The notes beneath the pieces were generated by a model. The model was not told where the DNA came from. It did no database searches and saw only the letters and a list, made by a program, of their open reading frames with translations. Source: Impatiens glandulifera (lineage: Eukaryota; Streptophyta; Magnoliopsida; Ericales; Balsaminaceae). Taken from it: a stretch of 64,000 nt of DNA. The translations under genes were made by a program, and so were the position numbers. The DNA lies in NCBI RefSeq assembly GCF_907164915.1, contig NC_061862.1, positions 93,823,995 to 93,887,994 of the forward strand. Direction: 5' to 3'. This document shows, piece after piece, positions 14,897 to 60,800 of this stretch (the first letter of the stretch is position 1; every line of letters begins with the position of its first letter).

Positions 14897-15017
14897 TTTT
14901 TCAGAAGAGTATGAACAGACACAAGATTAAGAGAGGTTTTGAGAGAGATGCAAAGAAAACTAGGGTTCTTAAGAATCTCGAGAGATGAAAAACTTTCAAT
15001 CTCATGCAAAACTGTCC

Positions 15018-36064: not shown

Positions 36065-36620
36065 AAGATCCGACCTCGATAAATATTTTATTAACTCGAG
36101 CTCGAATGAGTTTTTAAATTTGAACTTGCACTCGACTCAATAATTTACATACATGTTCGAGTTTGATTCGAAAAATTTGAATTAAAATTAAATTTTTAGA
36201 TATGAACTCGAACTTAAGTTAAAACCAATTTTCAAAATGATAATATCAAACTATTGTATTAATTAATTAAAATTCCATAATATAATATTTAAAATCAAAA
36301 TTAAAACTATAAATTTTGAACAAGACTTACCGATAATTGATTAACTAAAAAAGAGTTCTTGAGTTCTTTTCTTTGCTTGTTCACCTTCTCTCCATCTCTT
36401 GTTAAAAGCTGTGATGATAGCTCTTTTCCAGTTGATAGAAGGAAGAGGAGCCACAATAAGAGTAGGGTAAGTGTGTGATAAAAAGATGGATTGATGGAGT
36501 ATGATTTAAAAAATGGTTATAGACAAAGATGCATGCGAGGGGATTTTTACACACATACCTAAAGAGAATGTGATTAATTTTCTTTGTGATATCATTATTA
36601 TTATTATTAATATTATTATT
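36065..36620. mobile_element. Left part of a decayed GAGCTCG-type hAT element
   Basis: 36080-36240 carries AACTCGAGCTCGAATGAG and GAACTCGAACTTAAG words like the arms of the 24724-25619 element. The other arm lies at 50880-51055, beyond the 14 kb copia insertion. The inserted copia element's TTATT duplication falls in an ATT microsatellite (36590-36620) in the middle of it. Outer ends are not resolved. Confidence 0.5.
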
Positions 36621-37873
36621 TGTTAGGATCGGGGACGCCCTTGGAGGACCGGGGGTGTTTCCGGTTTCAGGAAGGGTGGCCGCTTACACAACACAACACT
36701 CTTTGGTGATAGTCCGGTTAAAGACTAAAACCTTTCTCAGCACTGCACAACCTGTCACAGACTCTTGAACCGGGTTCAAGGGCGGAAATGTCTGTTTCAG
36801 GTTGAAGCAACGAATGCGACTTTAGATGATGTTTAAGAAGGAGTCGGTTTTATGGAGGTAAGTGACCGGTTTTGGAAGTATGATTAGTTTGCAGTTTACG
36901 TTAAGAAAGCAAGAAATGAAAGCGAAGGAAAGAATACAAGACAGGAAATTTGTTTATGGATGTTCGGAGCAAACTCTCCTACGTCACCCCTTCTTCTCAG
37001 ATTATGAGAAGGATCTCCACTAACTCTTTAGAGTTACAACAGTACTGCCGGTCGAGCCCAACTTCGCTACTCGCCGGTTACACCAAACTCACACTTTGAT
37101 GTAATACAACAACACAACACAATAACACACAAAAGGCTTCCGGTTTTAGACACACCGGTTTTAGAATATAAGACTTTATCTCTCTAGAATTTAATGCTTT
37201 TATAACTCATTAACTATTTCTCAACTTCTTCGAACTGCTGCATTGAATGAAGACGATCCGTCTTCCTTTTATAGCTGAAAGTAGCTAACGGCTACTTTCT
37301 TCTCTCTCTTGCGGATTGGTCGATCATTATCACGCCTGTTTGCAGAAAGGTTGCTTGCACGCTTCAACTTCCTCAACACCTGGCATTCATGCAGGTGACT
37401 CTGAGCATATGATGACATAGCCGGTTTTTCAGATTGTAACACGTGTTGAGCATCCGCCTCCGGTTGTCAGCATCGGATCAACAAAGCATCATTGCTTTCC
37501 TCGCATGCTTCTGATCGGATCCGATCTTCTTTTATTCTTTTGAGACACGTTTCTTCCGTCATGGTACGTCATTCTTTGAATTTTGAATCTTCTGACTTTT
37601 GAATTGTACTATCCGGTTTCTGTGTCTTGTGCATTATGATCCGGTTGGAGTGTAATCTTTTGTTCTTCGTTAACCGGTCGCTTGAGAAAGTGAAACCGGT
37701 TCCTCTGATCTTTAACTTGATCACTTGAAGCTGGTTTCTTTGAAGTATATCAGCAACCGGTTTTTGATGCCCCAACCGGTTCATACGGTTTTAGAAGTAC
37801 CTGCACATAAAGATTAACCTCTATTTAGTTCGTCTGGCCGGTTCCAAAATTAATCTACTTAATTTTTCTATCA
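36621..37873 (-). repeat. 3' LTR of family 1 copy A
   Basis: 1253 bp, edges TGTTAGGATC and TTTTTCTATCA on the plus strand (TGATAGAAAAATT...CCTAACA in element orientation). A TATA box (CTATAAAAGGAAGAC) lies at 37267-37274 on the minus strand. The short plus-strand frame at its left edge is not a gene. Confidence 0.92.
37267..37274 (-). promoter_or_regulatory. LTR TATA box (copy A 3' LTR)
   Basis: Minus strand CTATAAAAGGAAGACG. It recurs at 50188-50195 (5' LTR, the one expected to drive gag-pol) and at 55324-55331 in copy B on the plus strand. Confidence 0.6.
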
Positions 37874-38110
37874 ATTTCTCCCTTTTTGATTATTTAGAAT
37901 AAATATTCAAAAATTGTAGTGTATGGCCGGTTCCAAAATTAATCTACTTAATTTTTCTATCAATTTCTCCCTTTTTGATTATTTAGAATAAATATTCAAA
38001 ACATGTAGTGTATGGCCTGTTTCAAAAATTTGCTTAGCAGCCAGTTTAGAAAAATTAATCTTTTTAATTTTTCTATCAATTTCTCCCTTTTTGATTATTT
38101 AGAATAAATA
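37874..38110 (-). repeat. Triplicated polypurine tract / LTR-edge repeat
   Basis: In element orientation the block AAAAAGGGAGAAATTGATAG, then AAAAATTAAG, then a stretch with ATTCTAAATAATC recurs three times before the LTR: at the true LTR boundary (37873/37874) and again near 37965 and 38080. Each copy therefore contains a polypurine tract followed by the first bases of the LTR. Units are about 105-115 bp. Sireviruses are known for multiplied polypurine tracts. Confidence 0.85.
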
Positions 38111-38341
38111 TTCAAAACATGTAATATATGGCCGGTTTAAAAACATGAGTTTGATTGTTTTAAAGAAAATGTTTCAAAAACATGAGTATGATTTTTGAGA
38201 GAAATATGTTTCAAAAACATGAGTGTGATTTTTTTTTTTTTTTTTTGGAGAGAAATATGTTAGAACCTAGTAGAAAGAACTAAGTAACCAAGTTCTGAGA
38301 CATAATAAAACATAATTGTTCAAAGTAAACAAAGAAAAAGT

Positions 38342-41203
38342 TTAGGGCTTGGATGATCCCCCCTTGTGTTGCTCTTTTTCTTGCTCCTTCTCCAACCGTC
38401 TTCTTTCTTCTTCTTGCCTTGCTCTGTGTTCTCTAGCACGTCTTTCGGCATCGATCAGCACACCGGCCCATACACTTGAATGACCGGTGCTCTTATTCTT
38501 GAGATCAAAGTTGGCACAAACTGGTCTTGGTGGTGGAGGCGGTAGAGTATTTGAAGGTCTGAAGCTTGGAGTTGCTGTAGACTCACCGGTTGGCCTTCTT
38601 TTCCGTTGATTGAGTTCCTCAGGATCTTCTTCTTCTTCCTCATCAAGCGGTTCAGCATTTATCGCGACTGGTGCGGCTGTTTTCTGTTCTGCCCGTTTCA
38701 TCACATTCTTAACTGCACTTCGCTTTTTCTTGTTCCTTGTATTCATGGAGTGGGACGGTTGAGCCAGAGAGAGATCCTGGGCGTTGACCTGCTCCTCCTC
38801 GTTGCATTGTTGGGCAAGCGCATAGTCTTTATCTTCAGTCTCCTTCTGTAACCGTTCCCTTTCTATCTCTTCCTCTTGCAGTTTCTTCGCGGTTTCAGCA
38901 TCCTTTTCGATTTGAGTCAGAGTGGTAGTGTCTTGAACCTTGAACATTTCCTCGATTTGAATTGCCATTGCTTGCAGCATATCCAAGAGTGGAGCGGTTG
39001 CGGCTTTAACGGAATCGGCAATCATGGTTTGTACTGTTGTCTGCATGGTCGTGTCAATCATCGTTTGTAGAGAAGTTGACAGTTTATCTTCAGCCACTGC
39101 AATTCTTTCGTCGGTTATGGCTGTGAACTTTCCAATGCAAGAGTCAACCGTTTCAGCCATTACTTGCTTGATCTGATCTATTTCCAGAACTTTGACCGGT
39201 TGAGAGGCTTCTTGTTCCCGGTTTTCAGAGGTTCCGGATGTCTCACTACTCATAAAAAATGGCTTACTTTGATATAATTCAGCATTGTTGAATTGACGTT
39301 GGCAACTTTTCCACCACTGCATGTCAAGACGATCAAGATTTCGCACAAGCTGTTCACGTACCCCGAGGAATCGTTCGGCCATCCTCATTTCAATCGGGTT
39401 TAGTGTCTTTCCTTGGGTTCCTTGAAACGCATTCTCAACTGCCTGTAACCGAGCATTTTCAAGGATTACCGGAGCTTTGTTAAACGCCGGTTGGATTAGG
39501 TCGGTGTTAGCCAAAGAAAGTGCCCTTTCTTCCAGTTCGATGAGCTTGTCCCATTGTCTGTTCCCACTAAAACCTGGAAGCATGTCGGCTAACTTGGTTT
39601 CGCATCGGAGCTTTACCCACAAGATGTATGGCGCTAGCGCATCACTTGCCCCTTTGTTCATATCTTGAATACACTCCTCGAAAATCTCATTTTCTTGCTC
39701 TATGGTGTAAGGAATATCGTCCCCGGTTATGGCTTCATGTTGAGGATCGATTTGCAGCGTGCCCGTTCCGGTTTCTGTTGTTTCTTCAATCAGGATGCTT
39801 TTGCCTTTGTCTACCTGAGAGGGACCTTCAGGTGTTGGTTCTGGTTGATTTTCTGAGACTATCTTTTCTCCTGCGGGACCGGACGGTTCCCGTTCTTCAA
39901 TATTTCCCTCCTGAGCCGGAGGTGCAACTTCTGTTGTGTTGGCCGTCTCACCGACCGGTTGTGCTTCGTTCTGATCAGGTACTTCAACCTGATCATCTGG
40001 CTTTCGACGACTTGAAACATCGTCCTCTTCGGTTTTTCTTGTGATCTCCTGGACCACATTCTGAATTGCTTCTGAGGTATTCAAACCCACATCGGCCAAT
40101 ACCTCTTCGACTTGCTTACTAGGTGACTTGGAGGTTGCAGATTGAACATTTTCCTCTGCTTCCTCCTTGGAAACTGATTTGTTCTCCTTGCTCCCCGAAG
40201 ATTCGGTTTGCTTTGGAGAATAGGATGGAATGGGAGTTGGAATAACGGTGTTGATGGGGATGGGCTGAAAGACATCTGCGGTTCTTTCCGGTGGATTGTC
40301 CGAGGAAAGCGTTTTCTCGGAGTCCGCCGGTTTCTTTGAGCTCTTCTTTGCAGATACTTTCTTCCTCCTCTTCGGTTCTGGTGGTACTTCTGCTTCAACC
40401 GCTTTTCTTGACGGTTTCCTCTGTCTTGTTTCTTCTTCAACTGGAACCGATGAACTGGCTCCCTTGGAGGATTTAGTTTTTGAGATTTTAGGTTTGATCG
40501 TCTTCTCCGGTTTTTCTATCATTGACTCAGAGTCAAGAATGTTGGAGATCGGAAGCGGTATGCCTTCACCTAGTTCCACATTAAGGAACTCAAGAATTTT
40601 GACGATTTGCATAGCATAGGCCTGCACCCGGCCATCTTTCTTTATCACCATTTGACAAAACTCTTCGTATATGACGTATCCCCAGTCCACCTTGTCTCCG
40701 CGGACAATGGCCAACAACATTCTGAGCTTAAATTTTGTGAGGTTATCGAAATTACCTCCTTTTCCTTGGAGTGATTTGACGATGACGGTCACTAACCATC
40801 TGTATTCCGGTTTTAGCTTGATCTTCCGGCTGGTGTGAATCACCAGATCCTGACTTGAGAAAGATACAACCAACCGGGCAGCATTTGATTCTGCCTCGGT
40901 TAAGTCAATCTTTAGGTCCGAACCGGTGTTGGGCAGACCAAGTGCTTCCGCAAAGATTTCTTCAGTGATGAGAATGGCCTTCCCGTTGACAGTAGCCGAG
41001 ATCTTCCTTTTTGACAGCGTCGCCGTCGCTAAGAACTCCGTCACCGCCGCCGGATGGATTATGAATGGACCAGACAGGAACTTTTCCAACCCAGATTCTC
41101 GAAGGAGTTGAAGAACAGCCTTGTTCTTATCGTCAGCATGCTCATCAATATCTGCGAAGTCAACTTGTAACATCCATTGGAATGGAGCTTTACCTAGATC
41201 CAT
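38342..41203 (-). CDS. Family 1 accessory gene 3 (953 codons), copia env position
   Basis: Open from the ATG at 41203 to TAA-type stop near 38342. N-terminal domain (residues about 1-240) shares an ordered motif set with the two genes upstream: LQVDFADIDEHADD, ESGLEKFLSGPFIIHPAAV, ISATVNGKAILITEE, then LVTVIVKSLQGKGGNF, DKVDWGYVIYEEF and AMQIVKILEFL. Residues about 240-520 are low-complexity, rich in Lys, Ser, Pro and Glu, with nuclear-localisation-like PKRRKKVSAKKSSKK. Residues 520-780 contain helical parts and a repeated TMIDTTMQTTVQTM segment; then a coiled coil (EEEIERERLQKETEDKDYAL) and a charged Arg/Glu tail. No signal peptide or membrane span, so not an obvious envelope protein. It resembles hypothetical proteins common in plant genomes, which may all be retroelement genes. 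Function unknown. Confidence 0.75.
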   Translation of the reverse strand: MDLGKAPFQWMLQVDFADIDEHADDKNKAVLQLLRESGLEKFLSGPFIIHPAAVTEFLATATLSKRKISATVNGKAILITEEIFAEALGLPNTGSDLKIDLTEAESNAARLVVSFSSQDLVIHTSRKIKLKPEYRWLVTVIVKSLQGKGGNFDNLTKFKLRMLLAIVRGDKVDWGYVIYEEFCQMVIKKDGRVQAYAMQIVKILEFLNVELGEGIPLPISNILDSESMIEKPEKTIKPKISKTKSSKGASSSVPVEEETRQRKPSRKAVEAEVPPEPKRRKKVSAKKSSKKPADSEKTLSSDNPPERTADVFQPIPINTVIPTPIPSYSPKQTESSGSKENKSVSKEEAEENVQSATSKSPSKQVEEVLADVGLNTSEAIQNVVQEITRKTEEDDVSSRRKPDDQVEVPDQNEAQPVGETANTTEVAPPAQEGNIEEREPSGPAGEKIVSENQPEPTPEGPSQVDKGKSILIEETTETGTGTLQIDPQHEAITGDDIPYTIEQENEIFEECIQDMNKGASDALAPYILWVKLRCETKLADMLPGFSGNRQWDKLIELEERALSLANTDLIQPAFNKAPVILENARLQAVENAFQGTQGKTLNPIEMRMAERFLGVREQLVRNLDRLDMQWWKSCQRQFNNAELYQSKPFFMSSETSGTSENREQEASQPVKVLEIDQIKQVMAETVDSCIGKFTAITDERIAVAEDKLSTSLQTMIDTTMQTTVQTMIADSVKAATAPLLDMLQAMAIQIEEMFKVQDTTTLTQIEKDAETAKKLQEEEIERERLQKETEDKDYALAQQCNEEEQVNAQDLSLAQPSHSMNTRNKKKRSAVKNVMKRAEQKTAAPVAINAEPLDEEEEEDPEELNQRKRRPTGESTATPSFRPSNTLPPPPPRPVCANFDLKNKSTGHSSVWAGVLIDAERRAREHRARQEEERRRLEKEQEKEQHKGGSSKP

Positions 41204-41316
41204 GATGTTTTGAAAAGAAAGGATGAAGAACGATGATGATCGGAGAGAGAAAAGCTTTTGAAGTTCTGGAGATTTTTAGAGAGAGAAAGCACATGTGTTG
41301 AATGGGCTGATTTGAG

Positions 41317-41325
41317 TTTATATAG
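41317..41325 (-). promoter_or_regulatory. TATA box of accessory gene 3
   Basis: Minus strand CATCTATATAAACTCAAATC, 114-122 bp before the ATG at 41203, with a CTTTCTCTCTCT leader between. Confidence 0.65.
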
Positions 41326-41726
41326 ATGGCGGTTCCAGGCGGTTTTGAAGACGAACCGTCAATTTGACGTTTTGGCGCCAACTTTCCCTCCAAAAAGTTA
41401 CTGCCGTAACTTTCGGCGGTAAAAGCGGGAATTCGATGGGCGGTAATTTTGAGAGGTAAAAACCATGGGCGATTAAGATTTTTCAAATTTTCATTTTTGC
41501 TCGAAATTCCGGTTTCTCTTGAAGTTTAACCGGAGATTGTTACGTTAACTTTGAGTTTTTGTATAGGTTTGAAAAACCGGAAATGAATAATATGAATGAA
41601 AAACCGGAGACTTTTTAAGAGTTGAAACATTTCATTAATACGAGAAAGGAAATGATTAACATGTGAGCGGTTCTGGTCGTACAACAAAATGACCAGAAAC
41701 CGAAAAGGAAACGAAAAGAGAGAGAA

Positions 41727-42485
41727 TTATTCAGTAAACCATCCTCCTTCCAACCTCCTTTCATACCATTTCTCCATGGTATTTTGAGGAGACCGTTCCT
41801 GAATTCTTAACACACATTTATAGATCATATCTATAGTGATGGTGTTGAAGGATCCAACCGGAACACCTTTTCCAAGGTTGCGACGCTTGGACATGAGAAA
41901 CTGGGTGATCTGAGGAGCGTAGCTGATCCTTCCTCTTTTACCGGTCATAAGCTGCTTTAGCTTATTGAACAGATAGGACGCCCAGTTGATGGCGGTTTCG
42001 CGGATGATGGCTATCATAATATCGAATGCCTCCCGGCTGTAGTTCTGATTGGGCATTCGGCCTATGATAGACCTTTGGACCAAATCGTGAAAGACTTGGT
42101 AGTGAGGAGCGAGATCTTCTTTCTTCCCAAAATCCTTAACAGGAGTGTATGAAGAAGAGAAGATCTTGAAAAAGGTTTCCTTAGCCGGTAAATACGGCGT
42201 CGGAAAATCGGAGAAACCTTCCGTTGAAAGGTGAAAGAAGGTGGCAAATTCCTCCTCAGAAAACTGGAGGAACTGACCGTCGATGATGGTGCGAATGCTG
42301 CCATCATCCAAAACATGACCGTTGTTGTAGAATTCGCACACCTCTTCCACGAGGATGAGGTCCGAACCCTTGAGAAAGCCTTTTAGGCCAGACTCTATGA
42401 CATGCTGAAAAATGCAGTCATAGTAGGAACTAAGCTTGATGTCTTCAAAATCAATGATCAGGGTGTTTCTTATCTCGGCAGACAT
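41727..42485 (-). CDS. Family 1 accessory gene 2 (252 codons)
   Basis: Open frame from the ATG at 42485 (MSAEIRNTLIIDFEDI). It keeps the shared motif order: IDFEDI, VIESGLKGFLKGSDLILVEE, TIIDGQFLQFSEEEFATFF, then HYQVFHDLVQRSIIGR, FDIMIAIIRETAINWASYLF, and YAPQITQFL near the end. Length equals the N-terminal domain alone, without the long tail of gene 3. The gap to gene 3 holds gene 3's own TATA box and a poor AT-rich stretch. Copy B has the start of the same gene (62983 on), cut by the assembly gap. Cytosolic or nuclear by lack of signal or membrane segments; function unknown. Confidence 0.75.
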   Translation of the reverse strand: MSAEIRNTLIIDFEDIKLSSYYDCIFQHVIESGLKGFLKGSDLILVEEVCEFYNNGHVLDDGSIRTIIDGQFLQFSEEEFATFFHLSTEGFSDFPTPYLPAKETFFKIFSSSYTPVKDFGKKEDLAPHYQVFHDLVQRSIIGRMPNQNYSREAFDIMIAIIRETAINWASYLFNKLKQLMTGKRGRISYAPQITQFLMSKRRNLGKGVPVGSFNTITIDMIYKCVLRIQERSPQNTMEKWYERRLEGGWFTE

Positions 42486-42587
42486 GATGATGAGCAGTGA
42501 AGAGGGTTTGATAAAGTTCTTGAGCTTTCGAGTTTTTAGAGAGATGAATGCTTGAAGGCGTGTTTTGAAAATGAAAGTGGAGTCCCC

Positions 42588-42595
42588 TTTTATAG
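42588..42595 (-). promoter_or_regulatory. TATA box of accessory gene 2
   Basis: Minus strand GGCTATAAAAGGGGACTCC, about 103-110 bp before the ATG at 42485. In copy B the same box (62881-62888) is also about 102 bp before its ATG. Confidence 0.65.
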
Positions 42596-42906
42596 CCTGG
42601 AGTGAGTGAGAGCATTTAATGAGAGGATTTGAAAATCTAGCCGTTTATGCTTAGTCATTAATGATTTTGTGATTTTCCAAGAGAATAAAAGCAAGTCTTG
42701 TCAAATCAAGTCAGGCATGCTCTTTGATAATGAAAGTTTATGTTTCCAAGAGTGAAATGATTTATTTTGATACGACGCATTTAATATTTTAGATTTTGAC
42801 TTTGAAAGGAAAGAAATTTGATTCATTGATTGGAGTACGAAACCGGTAGTACAACAAAAATACCGGTTTTGTAAAGAAAAGATAAAAGAAGAGAGGAAAG
42901 ACAGGT

Positions 42907-43668
42907 TTAGACATTTGATGACTCAGCCGCTTGAGCATTTGAAGCCTCAGCCGCTTGAATTCTTCTGGCTTTAACCGCTTCCCACTGGTCAATCATCTCT
43001 TGTACTCGCTCTATGGTGAGCACGTGCCTTGGGTGAAGAGTGACAAAGGGTCCGGAGTGGATGTCCAGACTTGCACAGAAACCGCTCAGCTGAGGAGCGT
43101 AGCCGGTTTTGTTGGAGAGAAGCATCTTCTTCAGGTTACTGAAGATGATCCACGACCAGTTGACCGGTGTCCCAACCGTTACTACGATCATCATTTCGAA
43201 GACCCTCTGAGTGTAATAGTAACTTTTCTCTCTGCACAAGACAGATTTTCCCAGAATCTCGCAGAGAATCTGGTACTTGTGAGAAAGTTGACTCTTAGCA
43301 CCCCAGGGTTTAACCGGGATGTCAGATCCAGAGAACCGGCGACACATCTCTTCCATTGTCACCGGGGAATAGGTTAGGTCGGTTACCCCTTCATTGGGTA
43401 AACCGCAGTATACAGCGAAATCCGTCTCGCTGAATAGGAATTTTTGACCGTAGACTTGTGCAACGAGTATATCTCGATGCACCTCTTTCGCGGTTTCAAA
43501 CAGTTCTTCGACTACAAGGTAGTCGATGATGAACCTGTTTTCAAGAAAACTTCTTAACCCACTCCTTTCTATGGCTAAGAACATTTCCTTTACTTCATGA
43601 TCCTCATATTGGTAGATTGATTCAAAATCTGCCAATAGGATCTTCTTGGCTAATGAGTTGGTATTCAT
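42907..43668 (-). CDS. Family 1 accessory gene 1 (253 codons)
   Basis: Open frame from the ATG at 43668 (MNTNSLAKKILLADFESIYQ). Motifs in the shared order: LLADFESI, IERSGLRSFLENRFIIDYLV, VAQVYGQKFLFSETDFAVYC, GLPNEGV, then YQILCEILGKSVL, FEMMIVVTVGTPVNWSWIIF, GYAPQLSGFC. The C-terminus is a short Gln/Ala-rich amphipathic stretch (VQEMIDQWEAVKARRIQAAE). The copy B counterpart (61812-62597) is very similar and also open, although its gag and pol are heavily broken. It is the first gene after RNase H, about 700 bp further on, with its own TATA box. Possibly in the family annotated as plant transposon protein domain; a profile search is needed. Function unknown. Confidence 0.75.
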   Translation of the reverse strand: MNTNSLAKKILLADFESIYQYEDHEVKEMFLAIERSGLRSFLENRFIIDYLVVEELFETAKEVHRDILVAQVYGQKFLFSETDFAVYCGLPNEGVTDLTYSPVTMEEMCRRFSGSDIPVKPWGAKSQLSHKYQILCEILGKSVLCREKSYYYTQRVFEMMIVVTVGTPVNWSWIIFSNLKKMLLSNKTGYAPQLSGFCASLDIHSGPFVTLHPRHVLTIERVQEMIDQWEAVKARRIQAAEASNAQAAESSNV

Positions 43669-43754
43669 GTTTTTGAGAGAGAGAAATGATTTTATCTCAA
43701 GAATGATACTTGTGAATAGTGAACTTGTGATGTTTTGAAAAGGATTAAGGATGG

Positions 43755-43763
43755 TTTATATAG
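43755..43763 (-). promoter_or_regulatory. TATA box of accessory gene 1
   Basis: Minus strand GGGCTATATAAACCATCC, 87-95 bp before the ATG at 43668. The copy B box (61723-61731) is 81-89 bp before its ATG, with the same TATATAAACCA core. Confidence 0.65.
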
Positions 43764-44380: not shown

Positions 44381-47300
44381 TTATATCAATTGATTAAGAT
44401 TAGTAAGACCCAAGATATTTCGAAAATGTGAAAACTTAGCTTCCTGTAGCGGTTTCGTGAAGATGTCCGCTACTTGTTGCTCGGTCGACACATATTCCAG
44501 CCGGATGTGTTTCTCCTGAACATGCTCCCGGATGAAATGGTGTCGGATGTCGATATGCTTGGTTCTTGAGTGCAACACCGGATTGTATGTGATCGCTATG
44601 GCGCTGGTGTTGTCACAAAAGATTGGAGACTCCTTTGCTTCTATTCCGAAGTCCCTGAGTTGCTGTTGAATCCAGAGGAGTTGTGCACAGCAGCTTCCAG
44701 CCGCTAAATATTCCGCCTCTGCGGTTGACGTTGCAACGGACGTTTGTTTCTTGCTGCTCCAAGTGACTAACCGGTCACCCAGAAACTGACATGTTCCACT
44801 TGTACTCTTTCTGTCGATTTTGCACCCCGCGTAATCGGCATCTGAGTAGCTTATTAAATTGAAGCTTGAGTCTTTTGGATACCAAAGTCCCACTTCTTGA
44901 GTTCCCTTCAAATATTTCAAGATTCTCTTAGCCGCCGTATAGTGAGATTGCTTTGGATTTGCTTGGAACCTTCCGCACACTCCAACCGCAAACAGAATAT
45001 CAGGTCGGCTTGCCGTGAGATACAACAGCGATCCGATCATTCCTCGATATGCTGTGATGTCAACGGCTTGACCATCATCATCTTTGTCCAGCTTCACGGA
45101 AGGACTCATTGGCGTAGCCGCTTCGGCACAAGTATCCATCCCAAATCTCTTCAGCAGTTCGGCTGTATACTTCGGTTGGCTTATAAAGATTCCGGCTTCC
45201 ATCTGCTTGACCTGAAGTCCTAGAAAGAAACTCATTTCCCCCATCATACTCATTTGAAATCTATCAGTCATCTTTTTCGAAAATTTGTCACATAATTTTG
45301 GATCGGTTGATCCGAATATGATATCATCAACATAAATTTGAACAAGTAGAATTTGCTCCTTTCTTTCAAATTTAAAAAGGGTTTTGTCTACCGAACCTAT
45401 TGTAAATTTGTGATCAAATAAGAATTGAGTCAAAGTATCATACCAAGCTCTTGGAGCTTGTTTCAAACCGTAAAGGGCTTTATTCAGCCGGTAAACGTGA
45501 TTTTCATGTTCTGGATTTTTAAAACCTGGAGGTTGGTTAACGTACACCTCTTCATTTACTTTACCGTTTAGAAAAACGCTTTTTACATCCATTTGATAAA
45601 CTTTGAACTTTTTGAAAGCTGCATATGCTAAAAATATTCTAATGGCTTCAAGTCTAGCTACAGGGGCGAAGGATTCTTCAAAATCAATGCCTTCTTCCTG
45701 CTTATAGCCTTGAGCCACTAACCGGGCTTTGTTCCTCGTAACTAAACCGTCTTCATTGAGTTTATTTCTGAATACCCATCATGTGCCTATAACCGGTTTG
45801 TTTTTCGGTCTAGGAACTAGGTACCAGACTTTATTTCTCTCAAACTCGTTTAATTCCTCTTGCATTGCCAAGATCCAATCTGGATCTGACAGTGCTTCAT
45901 CCACCTTTTTCGGCTCAATTTGTGATATGAAAGCAGAGTTTCCATAGTGATCCAAATTTTGTTGCCTAGTTCGGACGGGTGAGGATATGTTACCTATTAC
46001 TAGTTCAAGAGGATGATTTTTGTTCCTTATGAGGTTAATCCGAGACGTGTCTACCAAGCTTTCGGTTGGCTGATCAAGGTTAGACTGATCGGTAGGTTGA
46101 ACAGAGTCAAACCGACCGATTTCTTCAGTAGAAACTGAAGCGTCAACTTTCTGCGGTAAAGCAGCTTGATCAGGCTGAATTTCAACATCAACCGCTTGGT
46201 CCTTGACAAAACGTCTACAAACCGGAACCTCGTCTTCATCATCAGAATAGATATTGAAATTTTCCATTCTGTTGTGAAGGTCGAAGGGTAATGCAGTGTT
46301 TCGCTCAACCGATTCATCGAAAACAACGTGTGCGGTTTCTTCAACTGTTAAAGTCCTAGTATTGTATACTCTGTAGGCTTTACTCACAGCTGAATATCCC
46401 AACATTATTCCCTCATCGGATTTAGCATCAAACGCGGTCAAGTACTTCTTGCCGTTATTGTGAACAAAGCATTTACTACCAAAAATTCGAAAATACCGTA
46501 CACTTGGAATTTGATCAAAATAAATTTCAAAAGGAGTTTTCGAAAACCGTTTAGTTACTAAAGATCGATTTTGTGTATAGCAAGCGGTATTGATAGCTTC
46601 AGCCCAAAACTTTTGAGCGATACCCGAATCGGCTATCATTGACCTTGCGGCTTCCTTGAGAGTTCGGTTTCTTCTCTCAGCCAGGCCATTTTGTTGAGGA
46701 GTTCTGGCATTAGACAACTCGTGCCTAATACCGGAGTCATCAAGAAAAGTAGTTAAATTACTGTTAATAAACTCAGTTCCTCTATCACTTCTGATTTTGT
46801 TTACTTTAATAGATTTTTCATTTTGTATTCTCAAAATCAGTTTAATCAAGTTTGGAGTTGCTTGATTTTTAGAAGTTAGAAAAGTAACCCAAGTAAATTT
46901 AGAGTAATCATCAACAACTACCATAGTATAATGCATGCCTCCTAAGCTAGTTACTTTAACCGGACCAAACAAATCCATATGCAAGAGTTCTAAACATCTT
47001 TCAGATTGATAATTTCCTTTACTTTTAAAAGATGATTTCACTTGTTTCCCCATTTGACATGCAACACATACTTTATCTTTTGAAAACTTAACATTTGGAA
47101 AGCCGTGAACCAGTTCCTTGGAACAAATAAAGTTAATCGTTTTGAAATTCAAGTGATTTAACCGTTTATGCCAAAGCCAATTTGGATCATTTCCGGCTAT
47201 CATACACACAGGTTTTTCGAACTCAGTTTTCCAGTTTACTTTATAAATGTTTCCTATCCGGTTACCGGTTAACAAAGTGTCATTATTTTGATTTTTGACT

Positions 47301-47644
47301 AAACATGAGTTTTTATGAAATTCAACTTTGTAGCCCACATCACACATTTGGCTTATGCTTAGTAAATTAAAGCTTAGTTTTTCTACTAATAGCACATTAT
47401 TTATGGATAATTCACCATGGACAATCTTACCCTTGCCCACGGTTTTACCTTTTGAGTTGTCCCCGAATGTGATGAATGCTCCGGTTTCGTACTTGATGTC
47501 AGTCAGTAGCTCCTTGTTTCCGGTCATATGCCTTGAGCATCCACTGTCCAAGTACCATTCAGAATTCTTCAACCGGTTGTTCCTCCTAACCTGCAAGAAA
47601 CAATTATTTACACCTTTTTGGTACCCACATTTAGTTGGGTCCAT
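44381..47644 (-). pseudogene. Family 1 copy A copia pol: PR-IN-RT-RNase H, one internal stop
   Basis: Starts at the ATG at 47644 (MDPTKCGYQKG). Protease: EWYLDSGCSRHMTGN. GAG-pre-integrase zinc region: WHKRLNHLNFKTINF, then CVACQMGKQ. Integrase catalytic core: HMDLFGPVKV (D), IRSDRGTEF (D), QNGLAERRNRTLKE (E). [42 protein letters not shown] and the YVDD box in [12 protein letters not shown]. RNase [56 protein letters not shown]. Complete in length, but TGA replaces a Gln codon at about 45779-45781 at the start of RT, in an otherwise unbroken frame. Pol is in a different frame from gag. Confidence 0.9.
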
Positions 47645-47681: not shown

Positions 47682-49497
47682 TCAGATCACTTTCCCGGTT
47701 ATTGTTTTGATAATATTTGGCTTAACTTCTTGGCCGTTGCTCAAGAATTCCTTATGTGGTGATGGACTTCTTTGATGTCGGTTTTTATTTGTTTTACTTG
47801 GTTTCCGGTTGGCTTTCCTTCTCTCAGGATGAAGCCATTTTTCAGTTTCGTTAGGGCCTACATATTTAAGCGTTTCTTCCGGTTTTAAGTCATTTTCGGT
47901 TTGTGAAATTTTGACAAATTTTATAAACGGAAGATTATTTTTCGTTAGTTTCATCCCGTTGGATTGTTTTGTTTCATTTTGTTTACTTGGATCATAACCG
48001 ATACCATATCTACACTTAGGATGTCGTTTATAGTTACACATTTGTTTTACTGCTTGTCGTGATCTCTCCCACGCAGCCGTGACGTACATTGCTCGTTCAT
48101 CGGTTTCGATTACCGGTTGAACTGTCTCCTCATTATCGGAGAATAGTTCATCCGGTTCATACGTTTCGATCTCACATGTTTTATCGTTTTCATCATTTAT
48201 TTGTTCGGTTTTAGGTTCTACAGGTGTTGGTATATACGCAGATATATTTCTGAACTCAGCAACCATTTGGTTGAGTGCAGAAACTAGATCTTCTTTAGTA
48301 AACTCATCAGAGGAGAAATCAAATACCTCTTCATCGTTTGCCATGAAGCAGGTTACTTTCTCTTCAGCATCTTCATTATCGGAGTATGCCCACTCGCTTC
48401 CTCCGTCGGATGCAATGAGTGCTTTTTGAATCTCCTTTCCTTCATCGGCATGTTGATCATCATTTCTCCGGTAGCCGTTTCGTTGGTTGTTGTTGTTTCC
48501 CCGATAATTGTTTTCCTTGATAATTGTTTCCCTGATACCGGTTGCCTTGATAGTTATTTCCTTGATAATTATTTTCTTGATAGTTTCCTTCCGGTTTTCT
48601 ATCGTCTCTTCTTGGTTTTCTACATTCTGACCTGAAATGTCCAAAACCATCACAGTTATAACATCTCTTGTTTGATTTATCTACATAGTTATAATTAAAA
48701 TCATTATTAGATGGTGGCTGGCTCTTCTTCATAAATTTCCCAAATTTCTGAGCTAGCATTGCCATCACATCGTCGGTTATTTGATCGGTGTTTTTGACTG
48801 GAGCCGGTGCGGTTGATACTGGAGCCGCCGGTTCCACCGATGTGACCAAAGCTCTTGTTGCGGTTGATGTGGATGCTTCATCTTCGATCCGAGACTTGAT
48901 CTCGAATTCGTAGGCTTTCAAGTCCTCAAACACATCATGCAACTTCATCTGCCCAAGGGTGCTTGATTCCCTCATCACCATGGTCTTGATATCCCACGTG
49001 CTTGGCAAAGATCTTAAAGCTTTGATGATCACTTCTCGGTTGTCATACTTCTTTCCGAGTGTCTGAAGCTCGTTTACTACGCTGGTGAACCGGTTGCTGA
49101 ATTCCTTCATATTTTCTCCCGGTTTCATCCTTATATTTTCATACTTCTGCGTAGCCACCAAGATTTTATTCTCCTTGGTTCTTTCGTTTCCCTCGTGGAT
49201 CTGAATAATTGTTTCCCAGGCTTTCTTTGCATTTTCGCACTCTGATATTTTGTTCAACGTGTTGTTATCTATAGCTTTATAGATATACCTCATGCAATGG
49301 TTGTCCAGGTTGCTTCTTCTCCGATCTTCACTCGTCCACTGGCTCTCCTCCTTGTTAATCTTGATCGGTCCCTCTTTCAGGACTCGGCTCATCTCATCAT
49401 CTAGCGTAATCAGATGTAAATACATCTGCTTCTTCCAACTGCTAAACGCTTCGCTGTTTAGCATTGACGGCTTGTCGCTGTGGGTCATGCTTCCCAT
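47682..49497 (-). pseudogene. Family 1 copy A gag, frameshifted
   Basis: Begins MGSMTHSDKPSMLN, 45 bp after the primer site. N-terminal capsid-type region: SWKKQMYLHLITLDDEMSRV, EGPIKINKEE, ENILVATQKY-like segment, NMKEFSNRFTSVVNELQTLG, LRSLPSTWDIKTMVMRESST. CCHC knuckle: CYNCDGFGHFRSEC. A run of NYQGN repeats follows, and within it (about 48460-48650) the reading frame shifts; the rest (YSDNEDAEEKVTCFMAND, DFSSDEFTKEDLVSALNQMV, AAWERSRQAVKQM, then YGIGYD) is in another frame and ends at 47682. Copy B reads through this repeat in one frame, which shows the copy A break. Confidence 0.85.
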
Positions 49498-49540: not shown

Positions 49541-49542
49541 CT

Positions 49543-50794
49543 TGTTAGGATCGGGGACGCCCTTGGAGGACCGGGGGTGTTTCCGGTTTCAGGAAGGGTG
49601 GCCGCTTACACAACACAACACTCTTTGGTGATAGTCCGGTTAAAGACTAAAACCTTTCTCAGCACTGCACAACCTGTCACAGACTCTTGAACCGGGTTCA
49701 AGGGCGGAAATGTCTGTTTCAGGTTGAAGCAACGAATGCGACTTTAGATGATGTTTAAGAAGGAGTCGTTTTATGGAGGTAAGTGACCGGTTTTGGAAGT
49801 ATGATTAGTTTACAGTTTACGTTAAGAAAGCAAGAAATGAAAGCGAAGGAAAGAATACAAGACAGGAAATTTGTTTATGGATGTTCGGAGCAAACTCTCC
49901 TACGTCACCCCTTCTTCTCAGATTATGAGAAAGATCTCCACTAACTCTTTAGAGTTACAACAGTACTGCCGGTCGAGCCCAACTTCGCTACTCGCCGGTT
50001 ACACCAAACTCACACTTTGATGTAATACAACAACACAACACAATAACACACAAAAGGCTTCCGGTTTTAGACACACCGGTTTTAGAATATAAGACTTTAT
50101 CTCTCTAGAATTTAATGCTTTTATAACTCATTAACTATTTCTCAACTTCTTCGAACTGCTGCATTGAATGAAGACGATCCGTCTTCCTTTTATAGCTGAA
50201 AGTAGCTAACAGCTACTTTCTTCTCTCTCTTGCGGATTGGTCGATCATTATCACGCCTGTTTGCAGAAAGGTTGCTTGCACGCTTCAACTTCCTCAACAC
50301 CTGGCATTCATGCAGGTGACTCTGAGCATATGATGACATAGCCGTTTTTTCAGATTGTAACACGTGTTGAGCATCCGCCTCCGGTTGTCAGCATCGGATC
50401 AACAAAGCATCATTGCTTTCCTCGCATGCTTCTGATCGGATCCGATCTTCTTTTATTATTTCGAGACACGTTTCTTCCGTCATGGTACGTCATTCTTTGA
50501 ATTTTGAATCTTCTGACTTTTGATCTGTACTATCCGGTTTCTGTGTCTTGTGCATTATGATCCGGTTGGAGTGTAATCTTTTGTTCTTCGTTAACCGGTC
50601 GCTTGAGAAAGTGAAACCGGTTCCTCTAATCTTTAACTTGATCACTTGAAGCTGGTTTCTTTGAAGTATACAAGCAACCGGTTTTTGATGCCCCAACCGG
50701 TTCATACGGTTTTAGAAGTACCTGCACATAAAGATTAACCTCTATTTAGTTCGTCTGGCCGGTTCCAAAATTAATCTACTTAATTTTTCTATCA
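49543..50794 (-). repeat. 5' LTR of family 1 copy A
   Basis: 1252 bp, nearly identical to 36621-37873: about eleven substitutions and one 1 bp indel by eye. Its TATA box (50188-50195) is the one expected to drive gag and pol. Confidence 0.92.
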
Positions 50795-54659: not shown

Positions 54660-54747
54660 TGATAGAAAAATTAAGTAGATTAATTTTAAATCGGCCACAC
54701 ATTACAAGTTTTGAATATTTATTCTAAATAATCAAAAAGGGAGAAAT
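54660..54747 (+). repeat. Extra polypurine/LTR-edge unit outside the copy B LTR
   Basis: TGATAGAAAAATTAAGTAGA ... TTTATTCTAAATAATC ... AAAAAGGGAGAAAT, then the LTR proper begins with the same TGATAGAAAAATTAAG. It is one unit of the repeat that copy A has three times just inside its 3' LTR. If 54660 is the true left edge, this copy's LTR is 1300 bp and was defined by an upstream polypurine tract. Confidence 0.8.
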
Positions 54748-55959
54748 TGATAGAAAAATTAAGTAAGTTAATTTTTAGAACCGGCTAGACAAACTAAACA
54801 GTTGTTAACTTTCATGTGCAGGTACAGATCAAATCGTATGAACCGGTTGGGGGATCATTAACCGGTTGCTGAAACTCCTCAAAAGAAACTGGTTTCAAGT
54901 GTTCAAGTCAAAGATCAGAGGAACCAGTTTTCACTCTCTCAAGCGACCGGTCAGCAAAGACAAATTCATATACCAGCCGGATCATACTGCACAAGAGACA
55001 AAACCGGAAAATTCAAACTTCAAGAGTGACGTAACATGACGAAACAGACGTGTCTTTTAAGAATAAAAGAAGATCAGATCCGATCGGAAGCATGCGAGGA
55101 AAGCAATGATGCTTTATTGCTCTGAAGTTGACAACCTGAGGTGCATGTTCAACACGTGTCCGAATCTGAAAACCGATTATGTCATCTTACACTCAGAGCT
55201 GCCTGCATGACTGCCAAGTGTTGAGGAAGGTGAAGCGTGCAAGCAACCTCTCTGCACCGGCGTGATAATGATCAACCAATCCAGAGGAGAGAGAGAAGAA
55301 AAGTGACCGTTGGCTCTTCTCAGCTATAAAAGGAAGACGAATCGTCTTCATTTAATGCAAGTTACGAATTACGAAAAACAAATTATGAAAGCATTAAGTT
55401 AGAGAGATAAACTCCTATATTCCAAAACCGGTGTGTCTAAAACTGGAAGCTTTCTGTATCGTGTTGTGTTGAGTTGTTGTATTACATCAAAGTGTGAGTT
55501 GGTATAACCGGCGAGTAGCGAAGTTGGGCTCGACCGACAGTATTGTTGTAACTATAAAAGTTAGTGGAGATCCTTCTCATAACCTGAGAAGAAGGGGTGA
55601 CGTAGGAGAGTTTGCTCCGAACATCCATAAAAATCCTTGTCTCGTGTTCTTTCTTTCGCTTTCTTTATTTACTTACTTAACCTAACCTCAAACCAATCAT
55701 ACTCCGTAAATCGGTCCACTCATATCCATAAAACCGACTCCTTCTAAAACATCATCTAAAGTCGCATAAGTTGCTTCAACCTGAAACAGACATTTCCGCC
55801 CTTGAACCCGGTTCAAGAGTCTGTGACAGTTTGTGCAGTGCTGAGAACGGTTTTAGTCTCTAACCGGACTATCACCAAAGTGTTGTGTGTGTTGTAAGCG
55901 GCCACCCTTCCTGAAACCGGAAACACCCCGGTCCTCCAAGGGCGTCCCCGATCCTAACA
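54748..55959 (+). repeat. 5' LTR of family 1 copy B
   Basis: 1212 bp, TGATAGAAAAATTAAG to GATCCTAACA; clearly homologous to the copy A LTRs in reverse but with many substitutions and small gaps. TATA box at 55324-55331 (CTATAAAAGGAAGACG). Confidence 0.88.
55324..55331 (+). promoter_or_regulatory. LTR TATA box (copy B)
   Basis: CAGCTATAAAAGGAAGACGA, same core as both copy A LTRs. Confidence 0.6.
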
Positions 55960-55961
55960 AG

Positions 55962-55973
55962 TGGTATCAGAGC
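55962..55973 (+). other. Primer binding site (tRNA-Met type), copy B
   Basis: TGGTATCAGAGC two bases after the LTR end at 55959. Confidence 0.9.
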
Positions 55974-56004
55974 GAGGTTCTTAGCACTCAAGCAACCGAA
56001 GAAG

Positions 56005-57867
56005 ATGGGAAGCATGACCCACAGCGACAAGCCGCCAATGCTAAACAGCGAAGCGTTTAGCAGTTGGAAGAAACAGATGTATCTACATCTGATTACGTTA
56101 GATGATGAGATGAGCCGAGTTCTGAAAGAGGGACCGATCAAGATCAACAAGGAGGCAGACCAATGGACGAATGAAGATCGAAGACGGAGTAACCTGGACA
56201 ACCATTGCATGAGGCACATCTACAAGGCTATAGATGATAACACTTTGAATAAAATATCAGACTGTGATAGTGCAAAGGAAGCCTGGGAAACGATCATTCA
56301 GATCCATGAGGGAAACGAAAGAACTAAGGAGAACAAAATTTTGGTGGCTACACAGAAATATGAAAACATCAGGATGAAACCAGGGGAAAATATGAAGGAA
56401 TTCAGCAACCGGTTCACCAGTGTAGTCAACGAGCTTCAAACACTCGGAAAGAAGTATGACAAACGAGAAGTAATCATCAAAGCCTTAAGATCTCTGCCAA
56501 GCACTTGGGATATCAAGACCATGGTGATGAGGGAATCAAGCACCCTCGGGCAGATGAAGTTGCATGATGTGTTCGAGGATCTAAAAGCCTACGAGTTCGA
56601 GATCAAGTCTCGGATCGAAGACGAAGCATCCACATCAACCGCAACTAGAACTTTGGTTACATCGGTGGAACCGGCGGTCCAAGTATAAACCGTTCCGGCT
56701 CCAGTCAAAAGCACCGATCAGATTACTGAAGATGTGATGGCGATGCTAGCTCAGAAATTCGGGAAATTCATGAAGAAGAGCCAGCCACCATCTAACAATG
56801 ATTTTAATTATAATTATGTAGACAAATCAAACAAAAGATGCTATAACTGTGACGGTTTTGGACATTTCAGGTCAGAATGTAGAAAGCCAAGGAGAGACGA
56901 TAGAAAACCGGAAGGAAACTATCAGGGAAACAACTATCAAGGGAACAACTATCAAGGCAACCGGTACCAGGGAAACAACTACCAGGGAAATAACTACCGG
57001 AGAAACGACAACCAACGGAACGACTACCGGAGAAATGATGATCAACATGCAGACGAAGGAAAGGAGATTCAGAAGGCGCTCATTGCATCCGACGGTGGAA
57101 GCGAGTGGGCATATTCCGATAATGAAGACGGTGAAGAGAAAGTGACATGCTTCATGGCAAACGAAGAAGATGTATTTGATTTCTCTTCTGACGAGTTCAC
57201 CAAAGAAGATTTGATTTCTGTACTCAACGAAATGGTTGCTGAGTTCAGAAACATATCTGCGTACATACCGACTCCGCTAGAATCTAAAACCGAACAAACA
57301 AATAATGTATACGATAAAATCTGTGAAACCGAAATGTATGAACCGAATGAACTATTCTCCAATAATGAGAAGACAGTTCAACCGGTTACTGAAACCGATG
57401 AACGATCAATGTACGTCACGGCTGCGTGGGAGAGATCACGTCAAGCGGTAAAACAAATGTGCAACTATAAAAGGCACCCTAAGTGTAGGTTCGGTATCGG
57501 TTACGAACCGAATAAACAAAACAAATCAAAACAAACTAATGGGATGAAACTCACAAAAAACAACCTTCCTTTCATAAGATTTGTCAAGAGTTCAAAAACC
57601 GAAAATGACTTAAAACCGGAAGAAACACTTAAGTATGTAAGTCCTACTGAATCGAAAAAATGGCTTCATCCTGAGAGAAGGGAAGTCAACCGGAAACCGA
57701 ATAAACCAAATAAAACTCGACATCAAAGAAACTCATCACAACATAAGGCATTCTTGAGCAACAGCCAAGAAGTTAAGCCAAATATTATAAAAACAGATAC
57801 CGGGAAAGTGATCCGACTTATTCAAGTCTGGATCCCAAAGGGACTAATCAACCATGGACCCAACTAA
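56005..57867 (+). pseudogene. Family 1 copy B gag, one internal stop
   Basis: Starts MGSMTHSDKPPMLNSE at 56005. The capsid region is intact (SWKKQMYLHLITLDD, EGPIKINKEADQW, FSNRFTSVVNELQTLGKKYD) until TAA at about 56686-56688 in the linker before the zinc knuckle. The same frame then continues with VMAMLAQKFGKFMKKSQ, CYNCDGFGHFRSEC, six NYQGN/NYRRN-type repeats, the acidic part and YGI/FGIGY-type tail to the stop at 57865-57867. That stop overlaps the pol start by 14 bases in another frame. Confidence 0.85.
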
Positions 57868-60800
57868 ATGTGGGTACCAAAAAGGTGTAAATAATTGTTT
57901 GTTGCAGGTTAGAAGGAGCAACCAACTAAAGAATTCAGAATGGTACCTGGACAGCGGATGTTCAAGGCATATGACCTGAAACAAAGAGCTACTAACCGAC
58001 ATCAAGTACGAAACCGGAGCAATCATCACATTCGGGGACAACTCGAAAGCTAAAACTGTGGGCAAGGGTAAGATTGTCCATGGTAATTTATCCATAAGTA
58101 ATATATTGCTGGTAGAAAAACTGCGTTTTAACCTGTTGAGTATAAGTCAAATGTGTGATGTGGGTTACAAAGTTAAATTTCATAAAAACTCATGTCTAGT
58201 TAAAAACCAGGATAATGACATTCTTTTAACCAGTAACCGGATGGGAAATATTTACAAATTTAACAAACTGATTTTGAAAAACCTGTGTGTATGATAGCCG
58301 GAAATGATCCAAACTGGCTTTGGCATAAACGGCTAAATCACTTGAATTTCAAAACAATCAACTTCATATGTTCCAAGGAACTAGTTCACGGTTTTCCAAA
58401 AGTTAAGTTTTCAAAAGATAAAGTATGTGCTGCATGTCAAATGGGCAAACAAGTAAAATCATCTTTCAAAAGTAAAGGAAATTATCAATCTGAACGATGC
58501 TTAGAACTTTTACACATGGATCTGTTTGGTCCGGTTAAAATAACTAGTTTAGGAGGCATGCATTATACTATGGTAGTTATTGATGATTATTCTAAGTTTA
58601 CTTGGGTTACTTTTCTAGCTTCTAAAAATCAAGCAACTCCAAACCTGATTAAACTGATTTTGAGAATACAAAATGAAAAATCTATTCGAGTGAACAAAAT
58701 CAGAAGTGATAGAGGAACTGAGTTTATAAACAGCATAACCACTTTTCTTGATAATTCCGGTATTAGACACGAGTTGTCTAGTGCCAGAACTCCTCAACAA
58801 AATGGTCTGGCTGAGAGAAGAAACCGGACTCTCAAGGAAGCCGCAAAGTCAATGATAGCTGATTCGGGTATTGCTCAAAAGTTCTAGGCTGAAGCTATCA
58901 ATACCGCATGCTTTACACAAAACCGATCTTTAGTAACTAAACGATTTTCTAAAACTCCTTTTGAAATTTACTTTGATCAAATTCCAAGCGTACGGTATTT
59001 TCGAATTTTTGGTAGCAAATGTTTTGTTCACAATAACGGCAAGAATTACTTGACCGCTTTTGATGCTAAATCCGATGAGGGAATAATGTTGGGATATTCA
59101 GCTGTGAGTAAAGCCTACAGAATATACAATACTAGGACTTTAACAGTTGAAGAAACCGCACACGTTGTTTTCGATGAATCGGTTGAACAAAACACTACAT
59201 TACCCTTCGATCTTCACAAAAGAATGGAAAATTTCAATATCTATTCTGATGATGAAGACGAGGCTCCGGTTTTTAGACGCTTTGTCAAGGACCAAGCGGT
59301 TGATGCTGAAATTCAGCCTGATCAAGCTGCTTTACCGCAGAAAGTTGACGCTTCAGTTTCTACTGAAGAAATCGGTCGGTCTGACTCTGTTCAACCTACC
59401 GATCAGTCTAACCTTGATCAGCCAACCGAAAGCTTGATAGACACGTCTCGGATTAACCTTAGAAGGAACAAAAATCATCCTCTTGAACTAGTAATAGGTA
59501 ACATATCCTCACCCGTCCGAACTAGGCAACAGAATTTGGATCACTATGAAAACTCAGCTTTCATATCACAAATTGAGCCGAAAAAAGTGGATGAAGCATT
59601 GTTAGATCCAGATTGGATTCTAGCAATGCAAGAGGAATTAAACGAGTTTGAGAGAAATAAAGTCTGGTACCTAGTCCCTAGACCGAAAAACAAACCGGTT
59701 ATAGGAACACAATGGGTATTCAGAAATAAACTCAATGAAGACGGTTTAGTTACGAGAAACAAAGCCCGGTTAGTGGCTCAAGGCTATAAACAGGAAGAAG
59801 GCGTTGATTTTGAAGAATCATTTGCCCCTGTAGCCAGACTTGAGGCTATTAGAATATTTCTAGCATACACAGTCTTTAAAAATTTCAAAGTTTTTCAAAT
59901 GGATGTTAAGAGTGCTTTTCTAAACGGTAAAGTAAATGAAGAGGTATATGTCAATCAACCTCCAGGTTTCAAAAACCCAGAACACGAAAATCATGTCTAC
60001 CGGCTGAACAAAGCCCTTTACGGTTTGAAACAGGCTCCAAGAGCTTGGTATGATACATTGACACAATTTTTATTTGATCACAAATTCACAATAGGTTCGG
60101 TAGACAAAACACTTTTCAAATTTGAAAGGAAGTAACAAATATTACTTGTTCAGATTTATGTTGATGATATTATATTCGGATCAACCGATCCAAAGTTATG
60201 TGACAAGTTTTCAAAAATGATGACTGATAGATTTCAAATGAGTATGATGGGAGAATTGAGTTTCTTTCTAGGACTTCAGGTTAAGCAGATTGAAGCCGGA
60301 ACCTTCATAAGTCAACCGAAGTATACAGCCGAACTGCTGAAGAAATTTGGAATGGATACATGCGCTGAAGCGGCTACGCCGATGAGTCCTTGCGTAAAAC
60401 TAGATAAAGATGATGATGGTCAAGCCGTTGACATCACAACATATCGAGGAATGATTGGATCACTGCTATATCTAACAGCCAGCCGACCTGACATTTTGTT
60501 TGCGGTTGGAGTATGCGGAAGATTCCAAGCAAATCCAAAGCAATCTCATTATACGTCGGCCAAAAGAATCCTAAAATATCTGAAGGGAACTCAAGAAGTG
60601 GGACTTTGGTACCCAAAAGACTCGAGCTTCAATCTTATAAGCTACTCAGATGCCGATTACGCAGGATGTAAGATTGATAGAAAGAGCACAAGTGGAACAT
60701 GCCAGTTCCTAGGTGACCGGTTAGTCACGTGGAGCAGCAAGAAACAAACATTTGTTGCAACATCAACCGCAGAGGCAGAGTACATAGTGGCCGGAAGCTG

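Follow-up and report, generated by a model that had tools for sequence, protein, structure and literature searches.

A Sirevirus-like Copia element of Impatiens glandulifera with three paralogous accessory genes of predicted VANC-like fold and an enriched AACCGG motif

We analyzed a 64,000-nucleotide stretch of the Impatiens glandulifera genome (contig NC_061862.1, positions 93,823,995 to 93,887,994 of the forward strand), hereafter the window. It contains a Copia retrotransposon, copy A, with three consecutive same-strand open reading frames (ORF1, ORF2, and ORF3) between its RNase H region and its 3' long terminal repeat (LTR). The three ORFs are related to one another, their products are VANC-like by predicted fold, and the hexamer AACCGG is strongly enriched in the element that carries them. 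The window also holds a second, truncated copy of the same family (copy B) and the relic of a related element (relic C). The features of copy A are as follows.

36620-50794, minus strand: copy A, Copia element, recognized by its LTR pair and Pfam domains
49542..50794, minus strand: 5' LTR, with the primer site TGGTATCAGAGC directly after it
47682..49497, minus strand: gag (Retrotran_gag_2) and the overlapping next ORF, by Pfam, with a zinc knuckle slightly below the cut-off
45779..47644, minus strand: integrase region of pol (gag_pre-integrs, rve, SH3_retrovirus), by Pfam
44381..45718, minus strand: reverse transcriptase (RT)/RNase H region of pol, RVT_2 by Pfam and RNase H by position
43755-43762, minus strand: putative TATA box of ORF1, 94 bp before the ATG, kept in copy B as GGCTATATAAACCA
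43668-42907, minus strand: ORF1, 253 aa, intact, a single VANC-like domain (predicted)
42587-42594, minus strand: putative TATA box of ORF2, 109 bp before the ATG, kept in copy B as GCTATAAAAGGGG
42485-41727, minus strand: ORF2, 252 aa, a single VANC-like/Transposase_32-like domain, assigned by paralogy with ORF1 and the ORF3 N-terminus and not by a model of its own
41204..41726, minus strand: ORF3 upstream region, with four AACCGG/CCGGTT and three AACCGC
41317-41324, minus strand: putative TATA box of ORF3, 121 bp before the ATG
41203-38342, minus strand: ORF3, 953 aa, intact, an N-terminal VANC-like/Transposase_32-like domain (about residues 1-230) and a long tail
37873..38143, minus strand: polypurine tracts (PPTs), three copies of AAAAAGGGAGAAATTG just upstream of the 3' LTR
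36620..37873, minus strand: 3' LTR, with a TATA box at LTR position 599 and 19 AACCGG/CCGGTT matches, of which 12 lie upstream of that box

The two LTRs of copy A were 99.04% identical over a 1254-position alignment. The Pfam domains are in Copia order, with integrase before RT; several ORFs make up gag-pol, and the three accessory ORFs are unbroken. The PPT copies, identical to one another, start at 38092, 37976, and 37887, all within the final 0.25 kb before the 3' LTR. Copia order, large size, a sense ORF in the envelope (env) position, multiple identical PPTs, and a TATA box in the middle of the LTR are shared with the Sireviruses (SIRE/Maximus). On the other hand, copy A has three env-position genes instead of one, its motif is scattered and not arrayed like the repeated-motif (RM) boxes of Sireviruses, and the consensus PPT octamer AGGGGGAG does not occur in A, B, or C. 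Because that octamer is missing, we call the element Sirevirus-like rather than a Sirevirus.

The coordinates, strand, and lengths of the three ORFs are those given in an earlier note made from this sequence, which had proposed that they arose by duplication. Comparison of the products agrees with that proposal. BLASTP aligned ORF1 with ORF2 at E 7e-26 (30% identity), ORF1 with ORF3 at E 5e-18, and ORF2 with ORF3 at E 2e-16, and when the N-terminal domains were compared pairwise, none of 1000 residue shuffles reached the score of any of the three pairs (z 38.6, 29.5, and 27.9). The relationship is confined to the N-terminal domain, as ORF3 residues 236-953 had no relation to ORF1 or ORF2 (z 0.2 and -1.2). 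In an alignment of ORF1 from both copies, ORF2, and the ORF3 N-terminus (alignment A1), the ordered motifs described earlier (DF..I, SGL..FL, and Y..Q) were among the invariant columns. The Pfam family Transposase_32 (PF20167, “putative plant transposon protein”) scored 30.6 bits against ORF3 (E 3.7e-7) and 19.3 bits against ORF2 (E 1.1e-3), both below the 45-bit gathering cut-off, and was not found in ORF1; it matched three of the four members of alignment A1 at E up to 10, the best at 3.6e-8. No confirmed relatives of ORF3, alignment A1, or RT were found in viral contigs.

Each accessory gene is preceded by a sequence of the form CTATAWAA at 94, 109, or 121 bp from its ATG, within the 85–125 bp claimed earlier. 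This sequence occurs 17 times on both strands of the 64 kb, the three accessory boxes included, or 0.13 per kb of strand, and its presence in all three leaders would not be expected by chance. The ORF1 and ORF2 boxes also survive in copy B as 13–14-bp blocks between diverged flanks. At the sequence level, this supports a putative TATA promoter for each of the three genes. The CpG observed/expected ratio is 1.53 upstream of ORF3 and 0.67 and 0.78 in the other two accessory spacers; CpG islands have been described upstream of Sirevirus ENV (PMC2829016), and the CpG-rich region recalls them.

Copy B provided a measure of selection on ORF1.

54660..63138, plus strand: copy B, same family as copy A, cut by an assembly gap within its ORF2; 25 AACCGG and 15 CCGGTT
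61812..62597, plus strand: intact ORF1 of copy B, the protein 91% identical to that of copy A over 244 residues

The two copies were 87.8% identical across 8357 aligned positions; ORF3 of copy B falls outside the window, and the accessory-gene comparisons cover ORF1 and part of ORF2. Between the copies, ORF1 had a nonsynonymous rate (dN) of 0.069 and a synonymous rate (dS) of 0.81, a ratio (dN/dS) of 0.085, which is similar to the values for gag (0.046), integrase (0.114), and RT (0.029). ORF1 stretches read in the two other frames gave 1.8 and 2.5. Since the ratio is low in frame only and close to those of gag and pol, ORF1, at least, is evidently maintained as a protein much like pol. For ORF2, dS was saturated over the 51 readable codons, hence no ratio was obtained. 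Across the two elements (36620-50794 and 54660-63138), dS ran from 0.21 in integrase to 0.81 in ORF1, an unevenness that suggests recombination or gene conversion among copies.

Structures were predicted from shallow alignments for ORF1 and the ORF3 N-terminus. In the fold search, VANC21 (9LNJ) was the one standout match for both models, and the predicted fold resembles that of the DNA-bound VANC21 chain. A VANC-like or plant-mobile-domain-like identity had been recorded as a hypothesis on seeing AACCGG, ahead of the fold result. The first structural guess was the plant mobile domain (MAIN/MAIL1); it gave no Pfam match, and the fold search returned VANC21, although the absence of the plant mobile domain from the fold lists was not taken as evidence against it. 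No match in the viral structure library reached E 0.001 (the best was at E 0.3, with a probability of at most 0.14 among the matches listed), and sequence searches of PDB gave unrelated proteins at weak scores only (best E 0.014 for A1 and 1 for A2), judged to be chance. The VANC sequence domains DUF1985 and DUF287 were searched for and not found in ORF1-3, where Pfam scans up to E 10 gave Transposase_32 only; therefore the accessory proteins are, on these models, VANC-like by fold and not members of VANC.

The hexamer AACCGG occurs 60 times and its reverse complement CCGGTT 27 times in copy A (14,175 bp, both LTRs included, with AACCGGTT scored under both), against 2.8 and 1.7 expected under a first-order Markov model. 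Other sequence of the window, 31,535 bp in all, has seven AACCGG and one CCGGTT. AACCGG was the top hexamer of copy A, with or without its LTRs, and of copy B. It was also top in two of four 2.6-kb interior chunks of copy A, the others being topped by CGGTTT (z 4.9) and ACCGGT (z 6.6); the top hexamers of two control stretches with ORFs scored 4.6 and 5.5. A second-order model is stricter and soaks up part of the motif itself, and over 500 runs it still left 68 observed against 22.1 expected in copy A without its 3' LTR (maximum 38), 50 against 18.7 in its interior (maximum 34), and 40 against 12.8 in copy B (maximum 26). Density was 14–15 per kb in the LTRs and 1.3–7.7 per kb in the interior, with none in the 44-bp leader. 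The flanks had no clear consensus extension; one-mismatch variants above expectation were chiefly AACCGC and AACCGA, with some N-ACCGG forms.

The enrichment extends into coding sequence. Synonymous-codon shuffling gave a mean of 9.5 sites where 37 are present (none of 1000 shuffles had as many), and AACCGG taken alone, which is found in all three frames, headed the ranking of 3110 hexamers. Among the individual ORFs, gag, the ORF after it, integrase, and ORF3 had a clear excess, while that in RT, ORF1, and ORF2 was not significant. As copies A and B share ancestry, the enrichment in B is not an independent count, and the information it adds lies in excess conservation: of 47 gap-free sites of A, 34 are identical in B, compared with 22.5 when hexamers were drawn at random within 200 columns and 23.7 when such hexamers had one CpG, and 34 was reached in three and four of 5000 draws, respectively. 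Conversely, 34 of the 40 sites of B were unchanged in A. Where A sites were altered in B, it was mostly the CpG that had changed, the pattern expected from deamination. Conservation was equal (186/242) for other hexamers that contain CCGG, many of which overlap AACCGG sites. CpG richness is not favored as the cause of the motif: CpG-matched neighbors were less conserved than the sites, and CpG observed/expected was 0.89–1.02 in five other stretches of the window and 0.87 in copy A, yet AACCGG is rare in non-element sequence.

Relic C pairs a related accessory gene with a different motif.

9918..18724, minus strand: relic C, related Copia element, with LTR-like repeats (17670-18724 and 9918-11011), gag, and one ORF3-like gene
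17670..18760, minus strand: 5' LTR-like repeat, with 16 TTAGAC-N(3-8)-GTCTAA boxes
15201..15650, minus strand: TTAGAC-N6-GTCTAA/TAGACG cluster upstream of the accessory gene, with TATATAAG at about 15024
12680..14926, minus strand: ORF3-like gene, broken into four separate frames, the first two matching ORF1-ORF3

Two pieces of the relic C gag were 45% and 48% identical to gag of copy A, its accessory gene matched ORF3 at E 6e-23 (tblastn), and no recognizable pol was found. A primer site of the usual sequence was not found and the gag frame starts inside the terminal repeat block, so that the LTR borders of relic C are uncertain; the similarity of its repeat to a stray copy at 52.7–54.1 kb extends to 11358. 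That stray C-family LTR-type stretch (52700-54100, plus strand) carries 15 TTAGAC-N-GTCTAA boxes.

There was no CCGGTT and there were only two AACCGG in relic C. Its LTR-like repeats instead hold 16 and 22 TTAGAC-N(3-8)-GTCTAA boxes, in most of which the spacer is 5 bases long. Three further boxes, with a 6-base spacer, lie within 450 bp upstream of the accessory gene together with half-sites (12 TAGACG/CGTCTA against 0.41 in randomized sequence). The difference in spacer argues against simple copying of the gene-proximal cluster from the LTR. The remaining interior of relic C had no such boxes and four TAGACG/CGTCTA against 1.1, and copies A and B had no TTAGAC-N-GTCTAA boxes. Thus, two related elements carry related proteins with different motifs, each motif lying both in the LTR and close to the accessory gene, a pairing observed for two families in a single 64-kb window.

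VANC21 and VANC6 are encoded by the VANDAL DNA transposons of Arabidopsis. VANC21 recognizes YAGTATTAY both in vivo and in vitro and removes methylation from the element that encodes it, the targets of VANC6 have other motifs, the motifs lie in noncoding tandem repeats, and the proteins contain DUF1985 and DUF287 (PMC5735166). VANC effects extend from the binding sites across the element (PMC10398659); a structure of VANC21, unpublished at the time, was presented at a meeting (PMC8756742). The genes described here resemble this system in predicted fold, in being encoded by a mobile element, in having a short element-specific motif piled up in that element, and in the pairing of related proteins with differing motifs. 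They differ in that the carrier is an LTR retrotransposon (LTRs, gag, integrase, RT, primer site, and PPT) and not a Mu-like VANDAL transposon, in lacking DUF1985 or any other sequence-level match, in forming three paralogues in a single element, and in that the sites of copy A are scattered and partly coding, while those of relic C are noncoding repeats as in VANDAL.

We propose that ORF1-3 encode paralogous VANC-fold, sequence-specific DNA-binding anti-silencing proteins that act for their element in the nucleus, which we regard as the probable explanation. The products would be expressed from their own putative TATA promoters and may act in the nucleus; ORF3 has K/R-K/R-x-K/R clusters at residues 126, 278, 279, 825, 867, and 921, of the kind seen in nuclear signals by pattern. 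Given the fold and the motif, it is likely that they bind AACCGG-type motifs of their own element, and such sites would be those in the LTRs, the accessory promoters, and the element body. By analogy with VANC, we lean slightly toward binding that relieves silencing over the element, through loss of cytosine methylation or repressive chromatin, beyond merely activating transcription; with the DNA kept or made unsilenced in this way, the LTR promoter would fire, and so would the accessory genes. Protein and DNA motif would co-evolve, with the sister element C having one such gene and another motif at matching cis-regions. The number of genes might reflect one protein per cis-region or heterodimers, but such a division of labor is a weak suggestion. 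As a conjecture, binding may itself be methylation-sensitive, given that CCGG contains CG and CHG sites and the box of relic C often contains a CpG.

The same proteins might instead be plain transcription factors of the element, trans-activators at the LTR and internal promoters that leave silencing marks unaffected. The placement of sites lends itself to this: 12 of the 19 in the LTR are upstream of its TATA box, others are upstream of ORF3, and those of relic C occupy its LTR-like repeats and the region upstream of the accessory gene. A DNA-binding fold alone also implies binding and nothing further. However, enrichment within the gag, integrase, and ORF3 coding sequence of copy A is off the promoters and better fits an element-wide mark, and the closest fold is that of an anti-silencing protein whose primary effect was judged by the authors not to be transcriptional activation (PMC5735166). 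We consider this explanation unlikely.

A second alternative is that AACCGG and the palindromes are host-factor sites or RNA/hairpin features, serving in packaging or as small-RNA sources, and are unrelated to the accessory proteins. Several observations speak for it. Single-strand folding beat shuffled sequence in pieces of the LTR array of relic C (z -6.7) and its upstream cluster (z -4.5), and an LTR piece of copy A scored z -3.2, with one of 200 shuffles as good. The sites of copy A are also biased to the sense strand (46 against 22), and palindromes in maize Sirevirus LTRs are small-RNA hotspots (PMC5311732). By contrast, the piece at 41440-41589 upstream of ORF3, which contains several sites, folds ordinarily (z -1.15), the fold predicted for the accessory proteins is that of a protein that binds a motif, and two elements with related accessory genes have unrelated motifs, each in LTRs or LTR-like repeats and near the gene. 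We hold this alternative to be rather improbable.

Env-like or movement proteins, as earlier literature read genes between pol and the 3' LTR, a position where SIRE-lineage elements often have an ORF (PMC6317226), are very improbable, as the predicted fold is like that of a DNA-binding protein, the basic clusters of ORF3 are of the nuclear-signal kind, and no strongly hydrophobic stretch was found in any of the three ORFs (19-residue Kyte-Doolittle maximum means of 1.40, 1.09, and 1.16 for ORF1, ORF2, and ORF3). The hydropathy result, obtained without a dedicated predictor, is in line with the absence of a signal peptide or membrane span reported in the earlier note. Among the roles which that note had offered as speculation, the VANC21 fold match and the element-specific motif favor silencing suppression or transcription control over movement.

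The anti-silencing proposal also bears on accessory genes described elsewhere. The earlier note held a gene set in the env position to be unusual. A single ORF there is not, as a 3' sense extra ORF is present in 74% of SIRE elements, and these ORFs fall into 19 groups that resemble each other little or not at all (PMC6317226); the literature surveyed gave no case of three paralogues together. In Sireviruses, nine ENV-containing elements were reported with the motif, with 77 of 79 linker copies upstream of ENV; the study of RM boxes could identify no shared site at which one factor might bind and suspected an internal ENV promoter. The parts of the Sirevirus literature covered (PMC2829016, PMC6317226) treat the gene as envelope-like, do not name a binding factor, and leave open the function of the env-position gene and the purpose of the RM boxes. 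The boxes of relic C resemble RM boxes in being symmetric, CpG-containing, and located in LTR-like repeats and upstream of an env-position gene, and differ in lacking a CGG-CCG core.

Comparable genes are also found beyond Sireviruses. The 3' aORF(+) of sunflower Athila 14 shares its position, its sense orientation, and a weak Transposase_32 similarity (a partial match in Athila, and scores below 45 bits in ORF2 and ORF3), and its product is predicted to be nuclear; Athila is, in contrast, a Ty3/gypsy element with one such sense ORF reported (PMC11728184). Whether extra ORFs of Tork and Athila modulate the epigenetic landscape was left open (PMC12844716). Grande gene23, reported in a review (PMC7264820) to be driven by a promoter of its own and to give a nuclear product, and the Retand ORFs with Transposase_28 (PMC11963269) likewise lie between pol and the 3' LTR, but are antisense and have other domains. 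No link between the VANC fold and LTR elements appeared in the titles, abstract openings, and listed matches searched, although the 9LNJ authors may already draw it.

We tentatively suggest, at somewhat under even confidence, that Sirevirus-type “envelope” genes are at least partly VANC-fold anti-silencing proteins, with RM boxes as their cognate sites and with protein and motif co-evolving as a self-recognition module. For env-position genes and RM boxes alike, a VANC-like fold together with an element-specific motif offers a single answer open to test, in which the one would be the protein and the other the site it recognizes. If this is true, LTR retrotransposons have sequence-specific anti-silencing systems, the motif of each family is readable from its own sequence, and VANC-type anti-silencing is common to DNA transposons and LTR retrotransposons, with the code of family A written into gag-pol coding sequence.

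Elsewhere in the window, an 81–84-bp tandem repeat array lies at 19111-20480, and a tandem array at 21950-22930 consists mainly of AACGTG (28 copies in the 22-kb bin) at 9-, 11-, and 20-base spacing. A 45-bp tandem repeat array at 28197-28691 is open in more than one frame. By eye, ORFs at 7319-9100 resemble a Ty3/gypsy gag-protease fragment, and long minus-strand ORFs at 1891-4551 resemble a DNA transposon transposase.

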